The notes below the pieces were generated by a model. That model did not search any database. It was not told where the DNA came from and saw only the letters and a program-made list of their open reading frames with translations. A DNA stretch of 64,000 nucleotides from Limosilactobacillus reuteri (lineage in GTDB: Bacteria; Bacillota; Bacilli; Lactobacillales; Lactobacillaceae), in contig NZ_JAJGTZ010000023.1 in NCBI RefSeq assembly GCF_020784725.1, positions 62,001-126,000 on the forward strand. Direction: 5' to 3'. The stretch's first letter is position 1, and each line of letters begins with the position of its first letter. The position numbers and the translations under genes are program-made. Below, piece by piece: positions 4,932 through 53,559 of this stretch.

Positions 4932-5465
4932 TTATTGCAAGTAGCGTTTAAACGCAACCGTTAAGGGTTTATACAAGATAAAATAACAACCAAAATTACC
5001 AACCGCATGATAGAAATCAAATAGCAAGCCACTTAGCCAGTACGCCATAAAAGCAGCCCAGCCCCCATATATCGACATTCCTAAACTAACTATGAACCCG
5101 TATTCAAAACCTAAAAACGTCGCTAAAATTAACTGAAGAGTGAAATGCTTCTTTAAGGGTGTTACTTTAGCTAATCCTGCTACTGTAACAACACAAACTA
5201 TATATGCTAAAATTTGTGGGATTGTCCATATGCCAAATCCTAGTAAGAGATTTGATAGAACCATTATCATTACTGCTAACGATATTCCAAAACCAATTCC
5301 CAACATTAAAGTTGCAAGCATAATTAGATCAGTAACTGGCTGTACATTAGGAATTGGAATAATCTTGAATACACGTAAAACAGTTCCTAAAGCAGCAAGC
5401 ATGGCAATCAATGTCATCCTTTTAACTTGATCATGCTTACTAACAACCTGCGATCGCGCTTTCAT
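4932..5465 (-). CDS. ECF transporter S component, candidate corrinoid or lower-ligand transporter
   Basis: Small (177 residues), very hydrophobic protein with about six membrane helices and the AMLAA (AxxxA) motif in the first helix, typical of S components that dock on the shared EcfA/A'/T module. It starts one base after the stop of the DUF4430-like gene upstream, so the pair is one unit. The pair lies just downstream of cobT, at the end of the cobalamin operon. Known cobalamin-related S components (CbrT of L. delbrueckii; predicted CblT/CblS) and this context suggest uptake of cobalamin, cobinamide or a lower-ligand base. The substrate is inference; no EcfA/T genes lie in the window. Confidence 0.75.
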   Translation of the reverse strand: MKARSQVVSKHDQVKRMTLIAMLAALGTVLRVFKIIPIPNVQPVTDLIMLATLMLGIGFGISLAVMIMVLSNLLLGFGIWTIPQILAYIVCVVTVAGLAKVTPLKKHFTLQLILATFLGFEYGFIVSLGMSIYGGWAAFMAYWLSGLLFDFYHAVGNFGCYFILYKPLTVAFKRYLQ

Positions 5466-5466
5466 A

Positions 5467-5847
5467 TTATTCCGCCTTATCTAGGGTAAATTGTACCTTA
5501 TCATTATTCTTAAGAGTTTGCTGATTAGCTAACTTATTTACTTTTTTACCATTTACTGTGTATGTCCAATAAATACTCTTCTTTTGGTTTTCTTTTCTAC
5601 CATCAATTGAAGTAATAAAACCCTTTGCTTCTTCAACTTTCCAATTCTTTTTTAGTCCAGTAATTACTTTATCGTTCTTCTTTAAAGTAGTCTTCCTTGT
5701 GGCAACAGTCTTCTTACCTTGTTTAAGAGTATAGGTAACTTTTATTGTATTATTACTACCCTTTTGATCTTTATTTGTATATCCAGTTAGCATAAAAAAT
5801 GCCAAAAATATAACTAAGATACTGCTAAAAATTTTAACCTTCTTCAT
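5467..5847 (-). CDS. Exported DUF4430-like (transcobalamin-type) protein, altered lipobox
   Basis: A 126-residue protein with a Lys-rich start and hydrophobic signal segment (about residues 6-22), then an extracellular domain. The domain has the pattern of DUF4430, the fold related to the C-terminal domain of transcobalamin/intrinsic factor: ITSIDG, then WTYTVNG near residue 95, then LKNNDKVQFTL. The expected lipobox Cys is absent: LTGY (TAT codon) replaces the usual LTGC, so it is probably released or held by an uncleaved signal anchor. It is coupled to the ECF S component and probably presents its ligand, by inference a corrinoid. Shine-Dalgarno AGGAGG is well placed. Confidence 0.7.
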   Translation of the reverse strand: MKKVKIFSSILVIFLAFFMLTGYTNKDQKGSNNTIKVTYTLKQGKKTVATRKTTLKKNDKVITGLKKNWKVEEAKGFITSIDGRKENQKKSIYWTYTVNGKKVNKLANQQTLKNNDKVQFTLDKAE

Positions 5848-6135: not shown

Positions 6136-7188
6136 CTATGGAATAAAATTGAAGTCCATTTCCTGCAATGTATTCATATTTGTGAGCATCACCTTGACTC
6201 CATCAAGCCATGGCAAAAGCATCATGGCCCCGCTCCCTTCACCAACACACATATTAATATCAATATAAGGGTCTAGACCGAGAGCATCAAGAACGATTTG
6301 GGACCCTTGTTCTTTTGATTTATGGGTAGGGATCATATAATTTACTGCTCCTGGCTTGATTGAATTTGCTAATAATGCTGCTGAATAGGATAAGAATCCA
6401 TCAAGAAGAACAGGTTTATTCATTGCACCAGCTGAAAGCATTGCACCAGCCATTGCACCCAGTTCAAGTGCACCGACCTCACTTAATACTATAAGCGGAT
6501 CTGGTGATTTATTTTCTTTTAGTTTTGCTCGTTCAAGGCTTCTATTAACAACATCAATCTTATGTTTTAAACGTTCATCAGAAATATTAGATCCACGTCC
6601 AACAACTTCTGCTGCTGACTTATTCAAAAGTGCGGCAACTATTGCGGAGGCGGCTGTAGTATTCCCCATTCCTAGTTCACCTGTTGCAATTACTTGGTTT
6701 CCCTCTTCAAACGCTTTTATTCCCATGTCGAAACCATATTGTAAAGATTCTCTTGCTTCTGCTATCGACATTGCTGGTTTATGGAGCATATCTTCGGTTT
6801 CATGACGAATTTTATGAACTTTAACCAACGGAAAATTTAAATCTGTTTTAATTCCGATGTCATAAACCTGTAAGTCACACTTAAAAGCTTTCGCTAGCGC
6901 TGCAACCGTAGTATGTCCCTTCATCATATTAACTGCCTGAATTGCTGTAATTTTTTGCGGACTGGCTGAAACACCTTCATGGACAACGCCATTATCTGCC
7001 GCAAAAACTAAGCATTTTCGTGGTGTAAGATCAAAATCAGTTGTTCGATAAATTCCTGCTACATGATCAGCAAGCTCTTCTAAGCGTCCAAGTCCTTTTA
7101 CGGGTTTAGCAAGATTATCTATTTTCTGCTGCATTGCGCTCATTTTCTTTTCATCAAGCGGTCGCAGTTTTATTTCATCAAATTTCAT
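6136..7188 (-). CDS. cobT: CobT, nicotinate-nucleotide:base phosphoribosyltransferase
   Basis: Transfers phosphoribose from nicotinate mononucleotide to the lower-ligand base, giving the alpha-riboside phosphate used in nucleotide-loop assembly. About 350 residues, the usual length; contains LGRLEELA, the glycine-rich GELGMGNTTAASA segment and a C-terminal catalytic-type Glu in CVGEGSGAM. The start is the ATG at 7188, with GAGAGGG about nine bases upstream, rather than the ATG at 7206 inside hemD. It is the last gene of the cobalamin operon. No bluB is present, so the natural base is probably adenine (pseudocobalamin), as known for L. reuteri. Confidence 0.93.
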   Translation of the reverse strand: MKFDEIKLRPLDEKKMSAMQQKIDNLAKPVKGLGRLEELADHVAGIYRTTDFDLTPRKCLVFAADNGVVHEGVSASPQKITAIQAVNMMKGHTTVAALAKAFKCDLQVYDIGIKTDLNFPLVKVHKIRHETEDMLHKPAMSIAEARESLQYGFDMGIKAFEEGNQVIATGELGMGNTTAASAIVAALLNKSAAEVVGRGSNISDERLKHKIDVVNRSLERAKLKENKSPDPLIVLSEVGALELGAMAGAMLSAGAMNKPVLLDGFLSYSAALLANSIKPGAVNYMIPTHKSKEQGSQIVLDALGLDPYIDINMCVGEGSGAMMLLPWLDGVKVMLTNMNTLQEMDFNFIP

Positions 7189-7189
7189 T

Positions 7190-7900
7190 TTAATTTTCCC
7201 TCTCATAATGCCATAAGTTATCTAAAACATTTTCCAGTACGCACTTTCCCCTATCTGGATATATAACTTTTAAGCCTTTTTCTTGGATATAATTACCGGT
7301 ATTTTTTCCTAAAACATAGTAATTAATATTGCGATACTCATTACTATCCACTCTAGTCATAATTTCAAACATACGATTAAAGTTCGAAATACTAGTAACT
7401 AATGCACTTGTAATATGTTGTTTCATAAAAATTTTAAGTGCTTTTCCTTCATGCTGTTTATCCCATGTATTTTTATAAACTACAATTTTTCGTCCATAAA
7501 AATCGGAATAGTATTTCTCTGCTTTATCTCCAATAAGCCAACAAACATCCGTAACATGTTTATTCTTTAATTCCTCTAATAATGATTTCCGGTTCTCACT
7601 TGGAGCAATTTGGATAGGATTAGTAACTTTCTTCTCCAAACTTTGCTTAATTTTTTTACTAAGAACAAAAATAGTTGCTGTTGAATTTAGTGTTTTTAAC
7701 TGATCGCAAAATACCCGCGCGCCAAAAAGACTGGTAATTGCCAGTACCTTACTATTTTGTAAAATTTTTTTACTTTTTGGCGTTAAATCAACCGCTTTCA
7801 AAATTCGGAATGGAAAATAAATCACGTCATCCTTTTGTTCTAACTTTATTCGCCAATATACCGGAACTTTATTTTTAGGATAAGTAATCAAAATTGCCAT
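7190..7900 (-). CDS. hemD: Uroporphyrinogen-III synthase (stand-alone)
   Basis: Cyclises hydroxymethylbilane with ring-D inversion to uroporphyrinogen III, the last common tetrapyrrole precursor. A divergent 236-residue protein, recognised from ITSLFGARVF near residue 55 and the C-terminal YVLGKNTGNYI...YPDRG pattern of the HemD fold. It lies between cobC and cobT, away from hemACBL. A second HemD-like domain is fused to CobA at 20504-21898, so the operon encodes two candidates for this step. Shine-Dalgarno AGGAG is well spaced; the coding sequence looks more AT-rich than its neighbours. Confidence 0.82.
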   Translation of the reverse strand: MAILITYPKNKVPVYWRIKLEQKDDVIYFPFRILKAVDLTPKSKKILQNSKVLAITSLFGARVFCDQLKTLNSTATIFVLSKKIKQSLEKKVTNPIQIAPSENRKSLLEELKNKHVTDVCWLIGDKAEKYYSDFYGRKIVVYKNTWDKQHEGKALKIFMKQHITSALVTSISNFNRMFEIMTRVDSNEYRNINYYVLGKNTGNYIQEKGLKVIYPDRGKCVLENVLDNLWHYEREN

Positions 7901-36919: not shown

Positions 36920-38104
36920 TTATTGTTGAGTTACCTTCATTACATCACGAGCAATGATAATTTCTTCATTAGTTGGAATAACTGCTACTTTAACCTTACT
37001 ATCCGCAGTTTCAATACTTAATTCATTATTCTTGTTCTTCTCTTCATCAATTTTGACTCCAAGAAAGTCAAGATTCTTACAAATTTGACTTCGAATATAT
37101 GGCGCATGTTCACCAATTCCGGCTGTAAATACCAATGTATCTAATCCATCAAGATCAGTTGTGTAGGCACCGATATATTGTTGAATTGAATGTACGAATA
37201 CATCTAAGGCTAATTGTGCACGTTCGTTACCATTTTTTGCTGCACTTTCAATTTCTCGTTCATCATTTGAGATACCCGAAAGTCCCTTTAATCCAGAATT
37301 TTCATTCATTATTCGGCGCATTTCATGTGAATCAATATTGAGTTCTTCTTCAAGAAAGGGAATAATTTCTGGATCAATGTCTCCACATCGCGTTCCCATT
37401 ACAACACCAGCTAATGGCGTAAATCCCATTGAAGAATTAACAGATTTACCATCCAAAATTGCTGAGATGCTTGAACCATTTCCTAGATGACATGTAATCA
37501 TCCGGCGAGTTTTTTCTTTTCCAAAAAGTTCTCGGGCTTTTTCAGAAACATATTGATGAGAAGGGGCGTGAAAACCATAACGCCTGATTTGGTATTTCTC
37601 ATAAAATTTATATGGCAAAGCATACATATAAGCTTTTTTCGGAATAGTATGATGAAATGAGTTATCAAAAGTCACAACTTCTTTTGCATTAGGAAGGAAT
37701 TTTTCAAATGCTTTAATTCCTGCTAGACCATTAGGATTATGCAATGGAGATAGTACTTTTAATTCATCAATTCGTTTTTCTACTTCTGGAGTGACTGCTA
37801 CTGCATGAGTATAGTAGCTCCCACCATGTGAAATTCGGTGTCCTACACCGTAAATTTCAGATTTATCCTTAACGACGCCACTGGACATTAAAATATCAAT
37901 AATCTGATCAATTGCCTCTGAGTGATTTTTCAGCGGAATTTGTCTAGTTTCACTCGTTGTGTCAGTTTTATATGAAAGCTGACTTGTCGAAGAACCAAGA
38001 TTTTCAGCAGAACCACTAATTAATAGTTTCTCTTCCGGCATCAAGTAAAGCTTAAACTTAATTGATGAACTACCAGAATTAATTGCAAGTATTTTTTTTG
38101 ACAT
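36920..38104 (-). CDS. pduW: PduW, propionate/acetate kinase
   Basis: Makes ATP from propionyl-phosphate (or 3-hydroxypropionyl-phosphate), the last step of the oxidising branch. ASKHA fold with NSGSSSIKFKL at the start, GHRISHGGS near residue 94, HLGNGSSISAI near 181 and FTAGIGEHAPYIR near 300. About 394 residues. The ATG at 38104 has GGAG upstream. It lies between pduQ and pduU, probably with its product in the cytosol. Confidence 0.93.
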   Translation of the reverse strand: MSKKILAINSGSSSIKFKLYLMPEEKLLISGSAENLGSSTSQLSYKTDTTSETRQIPLKNHSEAIDQIIDILMSSGVVKDKSEIYGVGHRISHGGSYYTHAVAVTPEVEKRIDELKVLSPLHNPNGLAGIKAFEKFLPNAKEVVTFDNSFHHTIPKKAYMYALPYKFYEKYQIRRYGFHAPSHQYVSEKARELFGKEKTRRMITCHLGNGSSISAILDGKSVNSSMGFTPLAGVVMGTRCGDIDPEIIPFLEEELNIDSHEMRRIMNENSGLKGLSGISNDEREIESAAKNGNERAQLALDVFVHSIQQYIGAYTTDLDGLDTLVFTAGIGEHAPYIRSQICKNLDFLGVKIDEEKNKNNELSIETADSKVKVAVIPTNEEIIIARDVMKVTQQ

Positions 38105-38127
38105 CAAATCACTCCAAATAAACTAAA

Positions 38128-39249
38128 TTAACGAATTATTGCTTCGTAAACCATCTTTAAATCATCATCTGAAGGAACTACTGGATTACCAGGGAACGTT
38201 GCATCTTTCTTTGCATTTGCAACAATAGTATCAGCTAATTCTTCAGCTTTAGCAGGATCAACGCCAAACGCTTGAAGAGTCATTGGACAATTCATTTGAC
38301 GTGCCATTTCCCGAATTTTGGCAATTAGTCGCTTTACCGCAAGACGATCACCTACTCCAGGAGCAGCAATCCCGGCTTTCTTAGCAGCAATTGCAAACTT
38401 ATGCAATGCTTCTTCACTGTGTTCAGCATTATATGCAACAACATATGGTAATAGCATTGTATTAGCTAAACCATGTGGAACATGGAAATTAGCTCCTAAT
38501 TGGTGTGCAATCGAGTGGCAAATTCCTAATCCAGCAATATTAAATGCTGTTCCGGCAATATTTGATGCTTCGTGAACAATCTTACGAGCATCTACATTAT
38601 CGCCGTGACGATAACATTCAACTAAATGTTTAGTAATTGCATCAATTGCTTCTTCTGATAATGCAACTGTGAATAAGTTTGAATCCTTAGCAACCAAGGA
38701 TTCAAGTGCATGGGTTAAAACATCCATTCCCGAATATGCAGTTACACTCTTAGGAGCAGTCATAACTAGTTTAGGATCTAGCAAAGCACAATCAGGTGTT
38801 AAATAATCTTCCAAAATAGGAATTTTACGATGTTCTTTTGTATCAGAAATAACCGCAGTATTTGTAACTTCAGAACCAGTACCACTTGTTGTTGGGATAG
38901 CAATGTATTCGTTGATCTTGCACTTACCCAACTTCTCACCAAAGAAACGAATTCCTTTACCAGTATCCATGGCTGACCCACCACCAATACCAATCACAAT
39001 TGTTGGCTTAAGCTTAAGGAACTGTTGAACCCCTTCCATAATCTTATCTAGTGGTGGATCAGGGACAACATCAGAAAAAATTTCACACTTATTACTATTA
39101 TTAATGTGACTCTCGATTTCTTTTAAGGTATCACTACCAGGTAAGAAAGAATCACAAACTAGTAAAATCCGTTCATTATTAAGTGTCTCTAGTTCTTTCA
39201 AACTATCTGTTCCCGAATAAATCCGGGTTGGCATACTATATTTTTCCAT
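38128..39249 (-). CDS. pduQ: PduQ, iron-containing alcohol dehydrogenase
   Basis: Reduces propionaldehyde to 1-propanol, or 3-hydroxypropionaldehyde (reuterin) to 1,3-propanediol, regenerating NAD inside the shell. It has GIGGGSAMDTGKGI near residue 88, TTSGTGSEVTN near 130 and iron-binding His in HALESL and GICHSIAHQLG...HVPHG. The ATG at 39249 has GGGAGG ten bases upstream; the upstream ATG overlaps that site. 373 residues. Confidence 0.93.
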   Translation of the reverse strand: MEKYSMPTRIYSGTDSLKELETLNNERILLVCDSFLPGSDTLKEIESHINNSNKCEIFSDVVPDPPLDKIMEGVQQFLKLKPTIVIGIGGGSAMDTGKGIRFFGEKLGKCKINEYIAIPTTSGTGSEVTNTAVISDTKEHRKIPILEDYLTPDCALLDPKLVMTAPKSVTAYSGMDVLTHALESLVAKDSNLFTVALSEEAIDAITKHLVECYRHGDNVDARKIVHEASNIAGTAFNIAGLGICHSIAHQLGANFHVPHGLANTMLLPYVVAYNAEHSEEALHKFAIAAKKAGIAAPGVGDRLAVKRLIAKIREMARQMNCPMTLQAFGVDPAKAEELADTIVANAKKDATFPGNPVVPSDDDLKMVYEAIIR

Positions 39250-47620: not shown

Positions 47621-49297
47621 CTAAAGTTCCAAGTGTTCTGGATCAAGAGCGAATGGTAAGTCTTTAATCCGATCCCATTCTTCCTTGTCTTCATATAGAC
47701 GATATCCAGTACCTGGACCTTGATAATCATTCCCGTCATTTACAGCAGAAGTGATATTCCAATCTTTATCAAAGATAGAGGAAGTTTGAAGGTAATCTCC
47801 AACAACCTTTTGCTTTTGAAGGTTCAAAATTGCTTCAGCGACATCCTTAAATCCGTGGTTGTACAATGCCTTAATAATGTCAATAGCAGTAATTCCACGA
47901 TCCATCATATCCTGAGCAGCCTTCATATCTGCAACCATGTCACGCTTTGGCATGTCATCATGAGTGTTAGCATAAGTTGCTGCTTCAACTTCTTCATCAG
48001 TAATCTTTGGTAATCCCAGGTCTTCAAATACAGCTTGAAGGGCTTTAGCAGCTTTGTTACGAGCTTTAATAATGGTTTCTTCTTTAACAGGATGAATACC
48101 ATAATATTGACCTAAGTCACGTTCCATAACATACATATCATCGTAGTCCATAGCATCAGTGTTTGAACCAGCGAAGGTATTATCGTAGTTAGGAGTTGAG
48201 GAGTAACCAGAATTGATGTAGTCAGTACCGGCAATAAATTGACCAATAAACCGTTCAGTCCGACGCATATCGGAGTGTGAATATGCTTGGTCACAACCAG
48301 AAGCACATTCGATATCGCACATCATACATAATAAGTTTTCACCGAGAACTTCACGAATACCATTAGGAACAGCACCAGGAATTTCAATACAACTTACTGC
48401 ACCATTTTGAAGTCCTTGGACACCTGAAGCCTTAGTAAGTAAAATACAACGAGCTTCAAGGTAAAGCATTGACTTACCTTCTGGGTAACCCATCAGAACT
48501 TCTGAACCGGCACCTGAAGTAAAACGCATCTTCAAGCCACGTGATGCATAACATGATGCTAAGAATCCTTTAGACCATGGAGTATCGTCACCATCGGTAA
48601 ATACACGGTCAGTACCGTAAACTGAAATAGTTTCAGCATATGCAGTAAAACCACGCATACCTAATTGCAATTCAGTAGCTTCTTCAACAGAACATTGTGT
48701 CAATACACCAGGACGACCTGTTTGTGCACCAATTAAAATTGAAATAGCATTGAACGGTGCATAACGTGCCACTGCTGTTGTGGTTTCTTGTTCTGGAAAT
48801 CCCCGAAGAGCAGCATCTGCAGCATCTGCAGCAATTTGAACTGGGTTATCAACAGTGTTAGTAACGTGACATTGGTTATCAGGTTTACGACGTGGACGCA
48901 TCTTCTTGATAGCCATAATCATTTCACCAAAATCAAGCTTACTGATGATCTCTTCAGCTTTAGCAGGAGTCAAAGCTGATGTAATTTCAATAATTTCATC
49001 ACGAGATACATTGGGATCAACGAGCATCCGTGCAATCTTAGTAGAATCCATATTCATAACTTTTTCAACGTTGTCAATATTGATTCCATACTTAGCAATG
49101 TATAAGTCAATCAAGTCAAAATCTTCAAGCTTTTTACCATCCATCTCTACGATCTTGCCATTTTCAACTTTTACACTAGGCTTAGGGTCATTAGGCCCCA
49201 TCATTGCAACGAAACCTTCTTCTGGCCATTCTTTAACAAATGTATCTTGATGAATTGGGCGTTTTTCTAGTTCTTCAAATCGTTTTTGACGTTTCAT
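47621..49297 (-). CDS. pduC: PduC, adenosylcobalamin-dependent diol/glycerol dehydratase large subunit
   Basis: Catalytic TIM-barrel subunit that converts 1,2-propanediol to propionaldehyde and glycerol to 3-hydroxypropionaldehyde (reuterin). 558 residues, standard. KRFEELEKRPIHQDTF lies near the start, NAISILIGAQTGRPGVLTQCSVEEATEL near residues 192-219, and CDIECASGCDQAYSHSDMRR near 328. It begins behind AGGAGG. Confidence 0.97.
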   Translation of the reverse strand: MKRQKRFEELEKRPIHQDTFVKEWPEEGFVAMMGPNDPKPSVKVENGKIVEMDGKKLEDFDLIDLYIAKYGINIDNVEKVMNMDSTKIARMLVDPNVSRDEIIEITSALTPAKAEEIISKLDFGEMIMAIKKMRPRRKPDNQCHVTNTVDNPVQIAADAADAALRGFPEQETTTAVARYAPFNAISILIGAQTGRPGVLTQCSVEEATELQLGMRGFTAYAETISVYGTDRVFTDGDDTPWSKGFLASCYASRGLKMRFTSGAGSEVLMGYPEGKSMLYLEARCILLTKASGVQGLQNGAVSCIEIPGAVPNGIREVLGENLLCMMCDIECASGCDQAYSHSDMRRTERFIGQFIAGTDYINSGYSSTPNYDNTFAGSNTDAMDYDDMYVMERDLGQYYGIHPVKEETIIKARNKAAKALQAVFEDLGLPKITDEEVEAATYANTHDDMPKRDMVADMKAAQDMMDRGITAIDIIKALYNHGFKDVAEAILNLQKQKVVGDYLQTSSIFDKDWNITSAVNDGNDYQGPGTGYRLYEDKEEWDRIKDLPFALDPEHLEL

Positions 49298-50417: not shown

Positions 50418-50446
50418 AAGAATGCCTCCTAAGTATAAAAACAAAT

Positions 50447-50466
50447 AGCGATAATAAGAAATCGCT
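50447..50466 (-). other. Small hairpin in the pduA leader
   Basis: AGCGAT and ATCGCT separated by eight bases, 30-50 bases upstream of the pduA ATG. It may be a leader structure or part of an operator. Confidence 0.3.
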
Positions 50467-50478
50467 TACAATTCGGTA

Positions 50479-50498
50479 CATGTTAATTTTATAACATG
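50479..50498. promoter_or_regulatory. Palindromic operator candidate upstream of pduA
   Basis: CATGTTA-ATTTTA-TAACATG, a perfect 7+7 inverted repeat in the pduA-pocR control region. On the minus strand its centre contains TATAAA, which could be the pduA -10 box. A PocR or other regulator site is likely. Confidence 0.45.
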
Positions 50499-50529
50499 GG
50501 ATTTATGATATATTATCTTAAAAAATGTA

Positions 50530-50568
50530 TGATACTTAAAAAGAACAATAATTTATTATTATGTATCA
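50530..50568. promoter_or_regulatory. Second inverted repeat in the pduA-pocR region
   Basis: TGATAC (50530-50535) and GTATCA (50563-50568) within the repeated motif TGTATGATAC / ATGTATCACA. They are spaced about three helical turns apart, centre to centre, as for a two-site AraC-type activator. Inference only. Confidence 0.35.
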
Positions 50569-50579
50569 CAAAATTTACA

Positions 50580-50593
50580 GGAAAGCGTTTTTA
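50580..50593 (+). promoter_or_regulatory. Candidate cre site before pocR / pduA
   Basis: GGAAAGCGTTTTTA matches 12 of 14 cre positions. It overlaps the -35 region of a plausible pocR promoter with extended -10 (TG at 50606, TAATAT at 50609-50614), and lies upstream of pduA in the other direction. Confidence 0.4.
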
Positions 50594-50669
50594 TGTGTAA
50601 ATGTATGCTAATATATAGAGGTAAATAGCAACAATCCTTCAAAAATGGTAAAAAGCAGGCGAAATTAAA

Positions 50670-51749
50670 ATGTACGAATATTCTTCAAAATTCTTAAATG
50701 ACATTCAAAAAGTAACAAAAACATTTCAAGAAATAACTAATAATAATATAATTTTCACAAGCATTACCGGAGCAATTGTTGATTGTAATACCCTTCTTTT
50801 TGATCCAAATATTTCACTTGAACATTTACGAAAACTTGATTTTAAAAATTACTTTGTTTTCCCATTAGTTATAAGCTCATCTTTAAGTGGTTTTTTCGTT
50901 CTTGATGAATCACACATAGAATCAGACGTTATTGATTTATGTAGCAAATATATTGAAATTTCTTGCAAAAAGTTTATTGACAGTTCTAATGACCGTATAA
51001 CTGTTCTTGCTCCATTTGAGGCTCCTAAGCTAAGTTCACTAATCAAAGTTCTTAATGGGATACTGAATATTTCTGAAGACGGTTCAATAGCTAACGTCGC
51101 TAATTCTCCTATTCTCAACAACAGAAATGATGGTGCTCTAAGTGATATTGAGAAAAATATAACCATGGCGCTTAAATATATTAATTCTAATTTAGAAAAA
51201 TCACTTACTTTAGAAAATGTTTCTCAGAGGATTTATCTTTCACCATCATACTTAAGTCGAATCTTTAAAAATTACTTTAATGACAATTTCATTAACTATA
51301 TAAATCTACAAAAGATTGCACTTGCTCAAGAAAAATTAATTTTTTCAAATACACCGATTAATAAATTGGCTCATCAAGTTGGTTTCTCACAGACAAGTTA
51401 CTTTACTAAAATTTTCAAGCAAAAAGTAGGAATGACACCATCAAAGTATCGAAAATATAATTCTGCAATAAAGAAAATCTATACTATTCCAAGAGATTTA
51501 CAATGGCGCTCAAATAAATCCGTTTACGAAATTTCAAAAGATTTTTTCAGTAAAAATGATATTTCCTTTAAGGCCCGTGATTTAAATGGATATCCATATA
51601 TTTATTCAATAAATGATCTGAATGATATTAGTAATAAAGCAGGCTGGGTTTACACAGTAGATTGTTCTCAACCTATTATTCCAGCTAGTGAAATTAATGT
51701 ATTTGATCGTTCAGTAATTCAATGGATTTATACTGAAAAAATTATTTAA
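50670..51749 (+). CDS. pocR: PocR, AraC-family activator with a C-terminal DUF4430-like domain
   Basis: Likely activator of pdu and cob genes, divergent from pduA. Residues 1 to about 120 form a sensory region. Residues about 165-268 are the double helix-turn-helix AraC domain (LTLENVSQRIYLSPSYLSRIF; VGFSQTSYFTKIFKQKVGMTPSKYRK). Residues about 280-357 form an extension not usual for AraC proteins, whose pattern YPYIYSINDL, GWVYTV and DRSVIQWIYT matches DUF4430/transcobalamin-type domains. By inference this may sense corrinoid. The gene looks more AT-rich than the pdu operon. Confidence 0.88.
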   Translation: MYEYSSKFLNDIQKVTKTFQEITNNNIIFTSITGAIVDCNTLLFDPNISLEHLRKLDFKNYFVFPLVISSSLSGFFVLDESHIESDVIDLCSKYIEISCKKFIDSSNDRITVLAPFEAPKLSSLIKVLNGILNISEDGSIANVANSPILNNRNDGALSDIEKNITMALKYINSNLEKSLTLENVSQRIYLSPSYLSRIFKNYFNDNFINYINLQKIALAQEKLIFSNTPINKLAHQVGFSQTSYFTKIFKQKVGMTPSKYRKYNSAIKKIYTIPRDLQWRSNKSVYEISKDFFSKNDISFKARDLNGYPYIYSINDLNDISNKAGWVYTVDCSQPIIPASEINVFDRSVIQWIYTEKII

Positions 51750-51757
51750 AATTAAAA

Positions 51758-51797
51758 GAGTAGGCCTAAACTCGTTTGCGAGTTTTTAGGCCTACTC
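51758..51797 (+). other. Long hairpin downstream of pocR
   Basis: GAGTAGGCCTAAA pairs perfectly with TTTAGGCCTACTC, with an inner CTCG/CGAG stem closed by TTTG. No T-run follows, so it is not a typical terminator. It is the first of several hairpins in 51758-51886 and may be part of a structured RNA or a dispersed repeat. Confidence 0.6.
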
Positions 51798-52802: not shown

Positions 52803-53510
52803 CTAAACTAGCGCCGTTTGTAAAGCACACGCAAGAAGGCCTCCAACAATTGGGCCACACATTGGAACCCATGCGTACCACCATTCTGAAGCTCCCTTAT
52901 TAGGAATTGGCAAAATGGTATACGCTAACCGTGGTGACCAATCACGGGCTGGATTCAAGGCAAAGCCAGTTGTTGTTCCAAGACATGTACCAACAACTGC
53001 AATAACCATTCCTACAATAAATGGCTTTAATCCTTGAGTAAAGTTACCAAGATTTAAGAGCACGAAAATAAATGCAAAGGTCGCAATCACTTCTGAGAGA
53101 AAGCTAAAAATTGGGCTATTTATTGCTGGACGAGTGGCAAAAATACCAACATTATTTCCTTCTTCTTCATTTGGAGTCGCTTTAAATTGTGGATAAAATT
53201 GAATAATTACTAATACTGCACCAACAAATGCACCTAAAAATTGGCCTAATAGGTAAGGGATAACATTACTCCATGGGAATAATCCAAATACTGCAAAGGG
53301 AATTGTCACAGCAGGATTCAAGTGTCCTAGTGAACCAAGAAATCCAGCTACATAAACTCCCATTGTAACTGCTAGCCCCCATGAAATACAGATAAACCAC
53401 CAGCCGCTCTGTTTCCCATAAGTTTTATTTAAACTATTACCAGCACAACATCCTGCTCCTAATAGGATCAAAACCATGGTGCCAAAAAATTCGCCAATAA
53501 ATCCATGCAT
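52803..53510 (-). CDS. pduF: Glycerol/propanediol facilitator (aquaglyceroporin, PduF/GlpF)
   Basis: 235-residue MIP-family channel with six membrane segments and both pore motifs, HLNPAVTIPF near residue 63 and ALNPARDWSPRL near 186. The Asp after the second NPAR is typical of glycerol-permeable members. It delivers glycerol or 1,2-propanediol for PduCDE and is transcribed from its own cre-bearing promoter region. GlpF is the alternative symbol. Confidence 0.9.
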   Translation of the reverse strand: MHGFIGEFFGTMVLILLGAGCCAGNSLNKTYGKQSGWWFICISWGLAVTMGVYVAGFLGSLGHLNPAVTIPFAVFGLFPWSNVIPYLLGQFLGAFVGAVLVIIQFYPQFKATPNEEEGNNVGIFATRPAINSPIFSFLSEVIATFAFIFVLLNLGNFTQGLKPFIVGMVIAVVGTCLGTTTGFALNPARDWSPRLAYTILPIPNKGASEWWYAWVPMCGPIVGGLLACALQTALV

Positions 53511-53545
53511 GTTTAAACACCAACCTTTTTATATCATTCCCGAAT

Positions 53546-53559
53546 TGTATGCGCTTTCT
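53546..53559 (-). promoter_or_regulatory. Candidate cre site before the glycerol facilitator
   Basis: On the minus strand AGAAAGCGCATACA matches 13 of 14 cre positions, 36-49 bases upstream of the start codon. Confidence 0.55.

Follow-up and report, generated by a model that had tools for sequence, protein, structure and literature searches.

Santos et al. (2011; PMC3162504) described Lreu_1750 as an AraC-type regulator of 359 amino acids that is encoded beside the pdu genes and needed for the pdu and B12 genes, and whose disruption abolishes the production of reuterin and of vitamin B12; regulon data from a second strain were reported in 2014 (PMC4122935). The C-terminus of Lreu_1750 is about 60 residues longer than that of Salmonella PocR, and the longer form is shared by a homologue from L. 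brevis, although L. brevis cannot make B12 (PMC3162504). The available text of that report assigns no domain to the C-terminus and describes no test of a B12 effect on Lreu_1750; the words riboswitch, effector, and C-terminal are absent from it. A fusion of a transcobalamin-like SLBB domain to an AraC-like helix-turn-helix (HTH) in Lactobacillus had been described by Burroughs et al. (2007; PMC1796856), who proposed a one-component factor sensing B12, its precursors, or another ligand. That fusion has the same architecture and comes from the same genus group as the protein studied here, L. reuteri stands in their alignment, and it is probably the same family; it is given by gi number only, and in the available text it is neither called PocR nor tied to pdu, and no conservation, linkage, or riboswitch comparison is made. 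In Listeria, pdu is gated positively by B12, by means of an antisense RNA that carries a riboswitch (review PMC8079631). Among open-licence papers, none was found on PocR together with transcobalamin or on a transcobalamin-like domain together with an ECF transporter, no DUF4430 paper concerned PocR by its title or the start of its abstract, and SLBB, cobalamin, transcriptional regulator, and Lactobacillus together led only to the 2007 paper. The idea of corrinoid sensing has been known since 2007, and what is new here is the joining of PMC1796856 with PMC3162504, together with the comparative evidence given below.

The window (the whole stretch of DNA analysed, 64,000 nucleotides) carries on its forward strand the gene pocR (50670..51749), which codes for a 359 aa AraC-family regulator with a C-terminal DUF4430 domain and lies inside the pdu-cob cluster, divergent from a pduA-type gene. 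By length, context, and species group, its product is the ortholog of Lreu_1750 (PMC3162504); the best named match was L. balticus, with 97% identity at pocR. The protein comprises a fast-evolving alpha/beta N-terminal domain seen in the predicted model (residues 1-105; 50670..50984, +), an AraC double HTH (residues 159-262; 51144..51455, +), and the C-terminal domain (residues 266-357; 51465..51740, +). PF12833 (68.5 bits) and PF00165 (65.3 bits) both exceeded their cut-offs, identifying an AraC/XylS double HTH with its Pfam match at residues 185-262, and a Foldseek search with the full-length model matched an AraC-type domain at E 4.8e-7, with Rob and STM3175, AraC-type proteins bearing further domains, also among the matches. 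The NCBIfam PocR equivalog NF047788 matched the HTH region only, at 98.4 bits against a cut-off of 500 bits; this model has 296 positions, and the match ended at position 291, which corresponds to residue 264 of the window PocR. The length of this model and the report of Santos et al. (PMC3162504) support the earlier statement that Salmonella PocR has no such tail. The sensory domain PF10114 was detected neither in the window PocR (Pfam, E up to 1) nor in its own genome (E 0.001), and profile comparisons of the N-terminal domain matched nothing convincing. Against the N-termini of classical PocR proteins, hhalign gave a collinear alignment of 75 columns (E 0.0081, probability only 4.9%), and PF10114 matched one of ten family members tested at E 0.025; these matches are suggestive only, and the N-terminal domain is possibly a shortened relative of PF10114. 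PF02310, which we take to be the B12-binding Rossmann-like domain of CarH-type photoreceptor regulators, and any alpha/alpha toroid family were absent from the Pfam matches of PocR at E up to 1.

Downstream of the HTH, PF14478 (DUF4430) matched residues 283-355 over profile positions 2-71 of 72, scoring 25.8 bits when the whole protein was searched and 30.3 bits when the query was limited to residues 263-359. The Pfam gathering cut-off is 23.8 bits, and the proposal of a DUF4430 domain at this place, as well as the sequence motifs quoted for it (YIYSIN and GWVYTV among them), was upheld; a PocR paralogue scored up to 56.5 bits. A search of the 2.0 Mb own genome at E up to 1 gave only two DUF4430 matches, namely PocR and a secreted protein at 5467-5847. 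An AlphaFold2 model of full-length PocR, built from an alignment of 16 of the 52 sequences of the family, had a mean pLDDT of 80.2 with tail blocks at 83-94, and a model of the isolated tail (residues 264-359) reached a pLDDT of 91.8 and a pTM of 0.83. In both models strands 300-305 and 308-314, following helix 285-295, form a beta hairpin (residues 300-314; 51567..51611, +). Since strand 1 begins near residue 265-269, the domain extends over about residues 266-357, that is, 51465-51740; the preliminary description had placed it at 51507-51740, with a start that is too late.

The likeness of the tail to transcobalamin, claimed on the basis of its sequence, was borne out by the predicted structure, a beta-grasp with the beta domains of transcobalamin, intrinsic factor, and haptocorrin as its nearest neighbours. 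Of the top 20 Foldseek rows against the PDB, 17 were one or other of these carriers (probability 0.97-1.00, query TM 0.55-0.66, E 0.04-0.38, identity 7-17%) and the remaining three were 3u7z (twice) and 2egi; no row reached E 0.001. A mixed DUF4430 profile of 10 sequences, 4 of them PocR tails, had 3u7z as its best row (E 0.0069) and aligned from end to end with intrinsic factor (E 0.068 and 0.098) and haptocorrin (E 0.48) in weak, collinear matches. Reading the weak profile alignment by eye, Y310 of PocR would fall on Tyr362 of haptocorrin, which has been named as a bulky residue contacting the corrinoid (PMC4350170). Two sequence searches of the PocR tail alone against PDB chains found no B12 carrier. 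The matches, SusB-type glucosidases in both searches and AcrIIA2 in one (E 0.28-0.49), were taken as chance. A chance match was rejected for DUF4430 itself because the Pfam score, the predicted fold, and the occurrence throughout the family all point the same way, and the relationship between the PocR tail and the transcobalamin fold is well supported, both by the predicted fold and by sequence.

In the transcobalamin-like SLBB clade, a beta hairpin insert is the distinguishing mark and provides cobalamin contacts in transcobalamin (PMC1796856); the predicted PocR tail shares with the beta domains of the three carriers both the beta-grasp fold and this hairpin. In crystals, the isolated beta domain of human transcobalamin takes up cyanocobalamin or cobinamide and hardly alters its shape, while the alpha and beta domains join only when cobalamin is present (PMC5599065), and in rat transcobalamin the contact of cobalamin with the beta domain ranks above that with the alpha domain (PMC11107200). 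PocR differs from the carriers in being intracellular, in its identity of 7-17%, and in having no alpha/alpha toroid, which the vertebrate carriers need for very tight binding. The best explanation of the tail, and the one already put forward in the preliminary description, is that PocR senses a corrinoid directly through it; we give this reading a probability of roughly 0.6. Against it count the Foldseek E values of 0.04-0.38, the intrinsic factor profile at E 0.068-0.098, and the lack of any carrier in the search with the tail sequence.

The genomic context (diol dehydratase, ECF operons, and riboswitch-linked DUF4430 genes) favours a corrinoid as the ligand. The window contains pduC, for the large subunit of the B12-dependent diol/glycerol dehydratase (47621..49297, -; PF02286 at G000:C16:109636-111294, equivalent to 47636-49294 of the window). 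It also contains the gene of the stand-alone secreted-type DUF4430 protein mentioned above (5467..5847, -), a 126 aa product whose N-terminal stretch looks signal-like by eye and whose score of 73.5 bits agrees with the earlier remark that it has the same fold type. Beside this gene lies that of an ECF transporter S component (4932..5465, -; PF12822, 75.1 bits), and next to the pair a cobT-like phosphoribosyltransferase gene (6136..7206, -; PF02277, 370.8 bits). A PocR-like protein was found at E 1e-30 at 49 places in 36 of 397 Lactobacillaceae genomes, belonging to 6 of 40 genera. PduC occurred in 47 of the 397 genomes and in 35 of the 36 with PocR-DUF4430, and pocR lay within 5 kb of pduC at 28 of the 49 places and within 20 kb of pduC or CbiD at 39, counts that are lower bounds given the draft contigs. 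CbiD was present in 22 of the 36 genomes (the copy in G388 being broken) and absent from 14, so that the domain is retained in genomes that probably depend on imported B12. At two loci (L101 in G279 and L102 in G337), PocR stands beside a double ABC ATPase, an ECF S component, a protein of 349-350 aa, and a DUF4430 protein, and CbiQ was identified in L101 and in L108 (G153); in G337 one PocR paralogue is located at the ECF uptake operon and the other at pdu.

The DUF4430 genes outside PocR keep the same company. In 56 genomes, selected because they had PocR, PduC, or a riboswitch match, there were 78 such genes. At a distance of up to 5 kb, 13 of them neighboured PocR, 8 pduC, and 18 a riboswitch, 35 having at least one of these three as a neighbour, and none neighboured CbiD; by our own arithmetic fewer than one would be expected under random placement. 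A homologue of the window's stand-alone DUF4430 protein was also observed in or beside the pdu region of five pdu genomes without PocR-DUF4430 (L138-L142), two of which (L139 and L141) have an ECF S homologue there as well. When 398 genomes of the phylum were searched with the tail profile, 22 had a match at E 0.001, own genome included, and the three best outside matches (G419, G418, and G676) were secreted-type DUF4430 proteins. At the loci of these three, a cyclase/prenyltransferase-type alpha toroid is encoded upstream of the DUF4430 gene (over the cut-off in L145, below it in L144) or a CbiQ protein downstream of it (L146, over the cut-off). The proteins encoded downstream of DUF4430 in L144 and L145 had no Pfam match, the L144 protein had no match in a sequence search against PDB chains, and none of the DUF4430 proteins of the three loci was fused to AraC when open frames were read and proteins scanned. 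Judged by these sequence matches, L144-L146 look like the two halves of a split transcobalamin beside a transporter part.

Cobalamin riboswitches above the cut-off were found at 22 places in 18 of the 397 genomes, after the exclusion of 9 weaker matches. Those excluded include one in G142 that scored 30.9 bits and lay some 18 kb from pduC, and one in G236 that scored 20.8 bits and preceded a DUF4430 gene. At 12 of the 22 places, the first long gene to follow on that strand was a frame of 705-866 aa ending in DUF4430; in two more a DUF4430 gene followed 4.7-5.2 kb downstream, and 8 had no such link. All 12 direct cases belong to one genus (g13) and the two further ones to another (g25); Pfam was run on L125 and L123, the gene map was read for L123 and L125-L127, and the other 8 adjacencies come from coordinates and open-frame lengths. 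The genes concerned, large and of secreted type with the riboswitch directly upstream, were observed at L125:6922-9681, L123, L126, L127, G109, G133 (two), G082, G233, G180, and G291 (two). Their products are likely riboswitch-controlled corrinoid-capture surface proteins of one genus.

This linkage also bears on the possibility that the tail is a beta-grasp sensor for a soluble ligand other than a corrinoid, such as glycerol, propanediol, 3-hydroxypropionaldehyde, or another metabolite of the pathway. Members of the SLBB superfamily are believed to differ in their ligands, and a reviewer of the 2007 paper warned that those fused to an HTH may bind other ligands (PMC1796856); DUF4430 itself is a broad family. 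Moreover, PocR paralogues accompany glycerol-type genes, lying beside an FGGY kinase in L086 and near an MIP channel in L087, and the identity of the tail to the carriers is low. The riboswitch-DUF4430 linkage, the ECF and CbiQ operons, and the alpha toroid and CbiQ neighbours in L144-L146 all point instead to corrinoids, and the hairpin of the transcobalamin clade is kept in the PocR models. We therefore consider a non-corrinoid ligand unlikely.

No Rfam family reached its gathering score in the window, and in the own genome the best RF00174 score was 12.4 bits against a cut-off of 31.5, in agreement with the earlier observation that a cobalamin riboswitch is missing. The preliminary description had further held that the tail explains this absence, which stood in part. 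A riboswitch within 20 kb of pduC is indeed commoner in pdu genomes without PocR-DUF4430 (4 of 12) than in those with it (1 of 35), with a Fisher p of 0.012 in a comparison that ignores relatedness and in which the four riboswitch genomes come from two genera. In these four (G123, G170, G143, and G166) the riboswitch lies within 12 kb of pduC. The other 8 of the 12 had no riboswitch over the cut-off within 40 kb of pduC, while 7 of the 36 PocR-DUF4430 genomes had one somewhere, including G336, where it lies about 10 kb from pduC, and G364, where the distance is about 33 kb. The statement that the DUF4430 domain replaces the riboswitch was rejected as too strong, given G336 and G364, the 7 of 36 genomes with both, and the 8 of 12 with neither.

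Cobalamin riboswitches usually serve feedback on synthesis and uptake. Their absence from the own genome, and the presence of CbiD in 22 of the 36 PocR-DUF4430 genomes, would fit a PocR that is inactive when loaded with corrinoid, so that B12 shuts down cob (and pdu). Such negative feedback seems improbable to us: it would have no object in the 14 genomes that keep the domain without CbiD, it would be strange to close a pathway that needs B12 at times of ample B12, and the gating by B12 known from Listeria pdu is positive (PMC8079631). Retention of the tail in those 14 genomes is more in line with gating of a B12-dependent pathway than with feedback on synthesis.

Comparison with classical PocR proteins gave a second view of how the B12 signal may reach this regulator. 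Classical and enteric PocR share with the window PocR the logic of a pdu and cob regulon and a homologous HTH, which aligned by hhalign at E 2.3e-33 with a set of six regulators from lactobacillar pdu clusters that included three classical PocR proteins; classical and enteric PocR have PF10114 and no DUF4430 tail, whereas the window PocR shows the reverse. In 48 genomes searched, strong PF10114 matches near pduC were found in G033, G123, and G170 (Pfam was run on G123), and five weak ones (19.9-32.7 bits) in PocR-DUF4430 genomes on contigs other than that of pduC. In G123 a riboswitch on the plus strand (850527-850683) is followed by a classical pocR on the minus strand (850883-851854; L132:8527-9854, G123:C1:850527-851854), and in G170 the riboswitch (37668-37778, +) and the classical pocR (37887-38915, -) are placed likewise (L134:7669-8916, G170:C95:37668-38915). 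In both, the riboswitch is 3' of pocR on the opposite strand and points into it, which is the arrangement of AspocR in Listeria; a 2023 survey reports an antisense riboswitch at pocR from other Listeria and a Vagococcus (PMC9943018), and the word Lactobacillus is absent from its main text. By analogy, the riboswitch of G123 and G170 may work as an antisense switch on pocR. With the tail found elsewhere, this would make two routes for the B12 signal to PocR: it would seem to arrive by RNA at the classical PocR of some lactobacilli and, in others, through a domain of PocR that resembles a B12 carrier, neither being evident in 8 of the 12. In Listeria, as proposed here, PocR output depends on both propanediol and B12 (PMC8079631, PMC9943018); the difference is that the riboswitch sits there on an antisense RNA, and in the window system the reading of B12 would take place in the protein.

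The conservation of the tail was analysed in 52 PocR-like proteins, taken from open frames of at least 200 aa in L001-L015, L045-L094, and the window with phmmer at E 1e-40; proteins with identical last 250 residues were counted once, L016-L041 (HTH-only relatives), L042-L044 (own genome), and the broken G388 copy were left out, and L006 lacks its N-terminus since its contig begins there. The DUF4430 domain is kept in 51 of the 52. By Pfam (E 0.001) it was recognized at 45 of the 49 PocR places, at one of these below the cut-off; of the other four, two (G155 and G327) still show the domain when aligned, G084:C4:440348 is without it through loss, and the G388 copy is broken. Identity to the window PocR in L002-L005 was 0.95/0.96, 0.91/0.94, 0.90/0.97, and 0.84/0.91 for DUF4430/HTH, against 0.58-0.74 for the N-terminal domain and 0.32-0.42 for the linker. 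W326 occurs in all 52 proteins and G325 in 51, this pair marking the start of strand 3 (51642..51647, +); G325, I314, Q334, P335, Q351, and W352 are found in 50-51, and Y310 is Tyr in 46 and Cys in 5. The dN of the DUF4430 domain was 0.03-0.09, with a dS of about 2 or saturated between Limosilactobacillus species. The tail is thus a trait of the PocR family that is under selection, nearly as conserved as the HTH.

This degree of conservation, with conserved residues spread over the fold, might be expected if the tail were structural, a surface for dimer formation or for contacts to RNA polymerase or some other protein that has no small-molecule ligand; Rob and STM3175 in the full-length fold search also show AraC-type proteins with further domains. 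The conserved set includes residues of the hairpin and of strand 3, the elements that make up the ligand-binding side of transcobalamin (PMC1796856), and the genes in the neighbourhood are related to corrinoids; a purely structural role thus appears quite improbable. That the tail is a leftover of the fusion with no present function is barely credible, for although the paralogue at G084:C4:440348 lost it and keeps a frame of 316 aa, it is kept in 51 of 52 proteins, with the low dN against saturated dS given above.

That paralogue (L093:6292-7239, G084:C4:440348-441163) lacks the DUF4430 tail in an intact frame, and a separate DUF4430 gene (G084:C4:441337-441546) was observed on the opposite strand just past its end. 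In G388 (G388:C3:324000-350000) the broken pocR-like gene accompanies a fragmented pduC match, which suggests decay of the pathway. A search of 72,556 plasmid records at E 1e-20 gave no match, which leaves a spread of PocR on plasmids unsupported.

Under direct corrinoid sensing, PocR would be a one-component AraC-type activator of the pdu and cob genes with a C-terminal corrinoid sensor, its ligand being cobalamin, a precursor such as cobinamide, or pseudo-B12. The corrinoid would be held on the face formed by hairpin 300-314, strand 3 (W326), and the connector of strands 4-5, and its other face might be covered by the N-terminal domain or by a second protomer, by analogy with the alpha domain of transcobalamin closing on the beta domain, so that the corrinoid would bridge the tail and another PocR surface. 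We infer that this closure would switch the activator, and as to the direction of the effect, likeliest would be that corrinoid-loaded PocR is fully competent for pdu activation, in which case the dehydratase and its shell would be made only with substrate and cofactor both at hand. If loaded PocR were required for the cob genes as well, B12 producers would face a start-up problem; pdu and cob expression was already increased when PocR was overexpressed in the absence of glycerol (PMC3162504). A fuller scheme, which we offer tentatively and regard as doubtful as a whole, is a two-sensor AND gate: a diverged PocR-type N-terminus would read the diol and a captured transcobalamin beta domain the corrinoid, which would act as the glue closing the chain. 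The tail would then do in protein what the antisense B12 riboswitch on pocR does in Listeria and apparently in two classical-PocR lactobacilli, with the same domain seemingly used extracellularly to catch B12.

Whether this probiotic produces reuterin and vitamin B12 depends on the signal that PocR reads. Should its tail bind a corrinoid, PocR would be a transcription factor sensing B12 with the fold of the human B12 carriers, the yields of B12 and reuterin could be influenced directly through it, and one domain would both catch B12 outside the cell and read it inside.

Some minor features accompany pocR. The gene divergent from it, which we take from synteny to be pduA, is separated from it by an intergenic region (50445..50669) in which a block at about 50457-50496 is conserved in an alignment of six Limosilactobacillus sequences; for the conserved blocks upstream of pduA, no second site was found before the cob operon within the window. 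A conserved element upstream of the pduA-type gene, at 50457-50473 and cre-like by what we take to be the cre consensus, has a copy with two mismatches at 53543-53559, upstream of the gene at 52803-53510. These were the two matches in the 64 kb, against 0.54 expected, and 9 of 100 shuffles reached two. Finally, an inverted repeat at 51758-51797 (GAGTAGGCCTAAA ... TTTAGGCCTACTC) lies between pocR and the convergent gene, and is perhaps a terminator shared by both.
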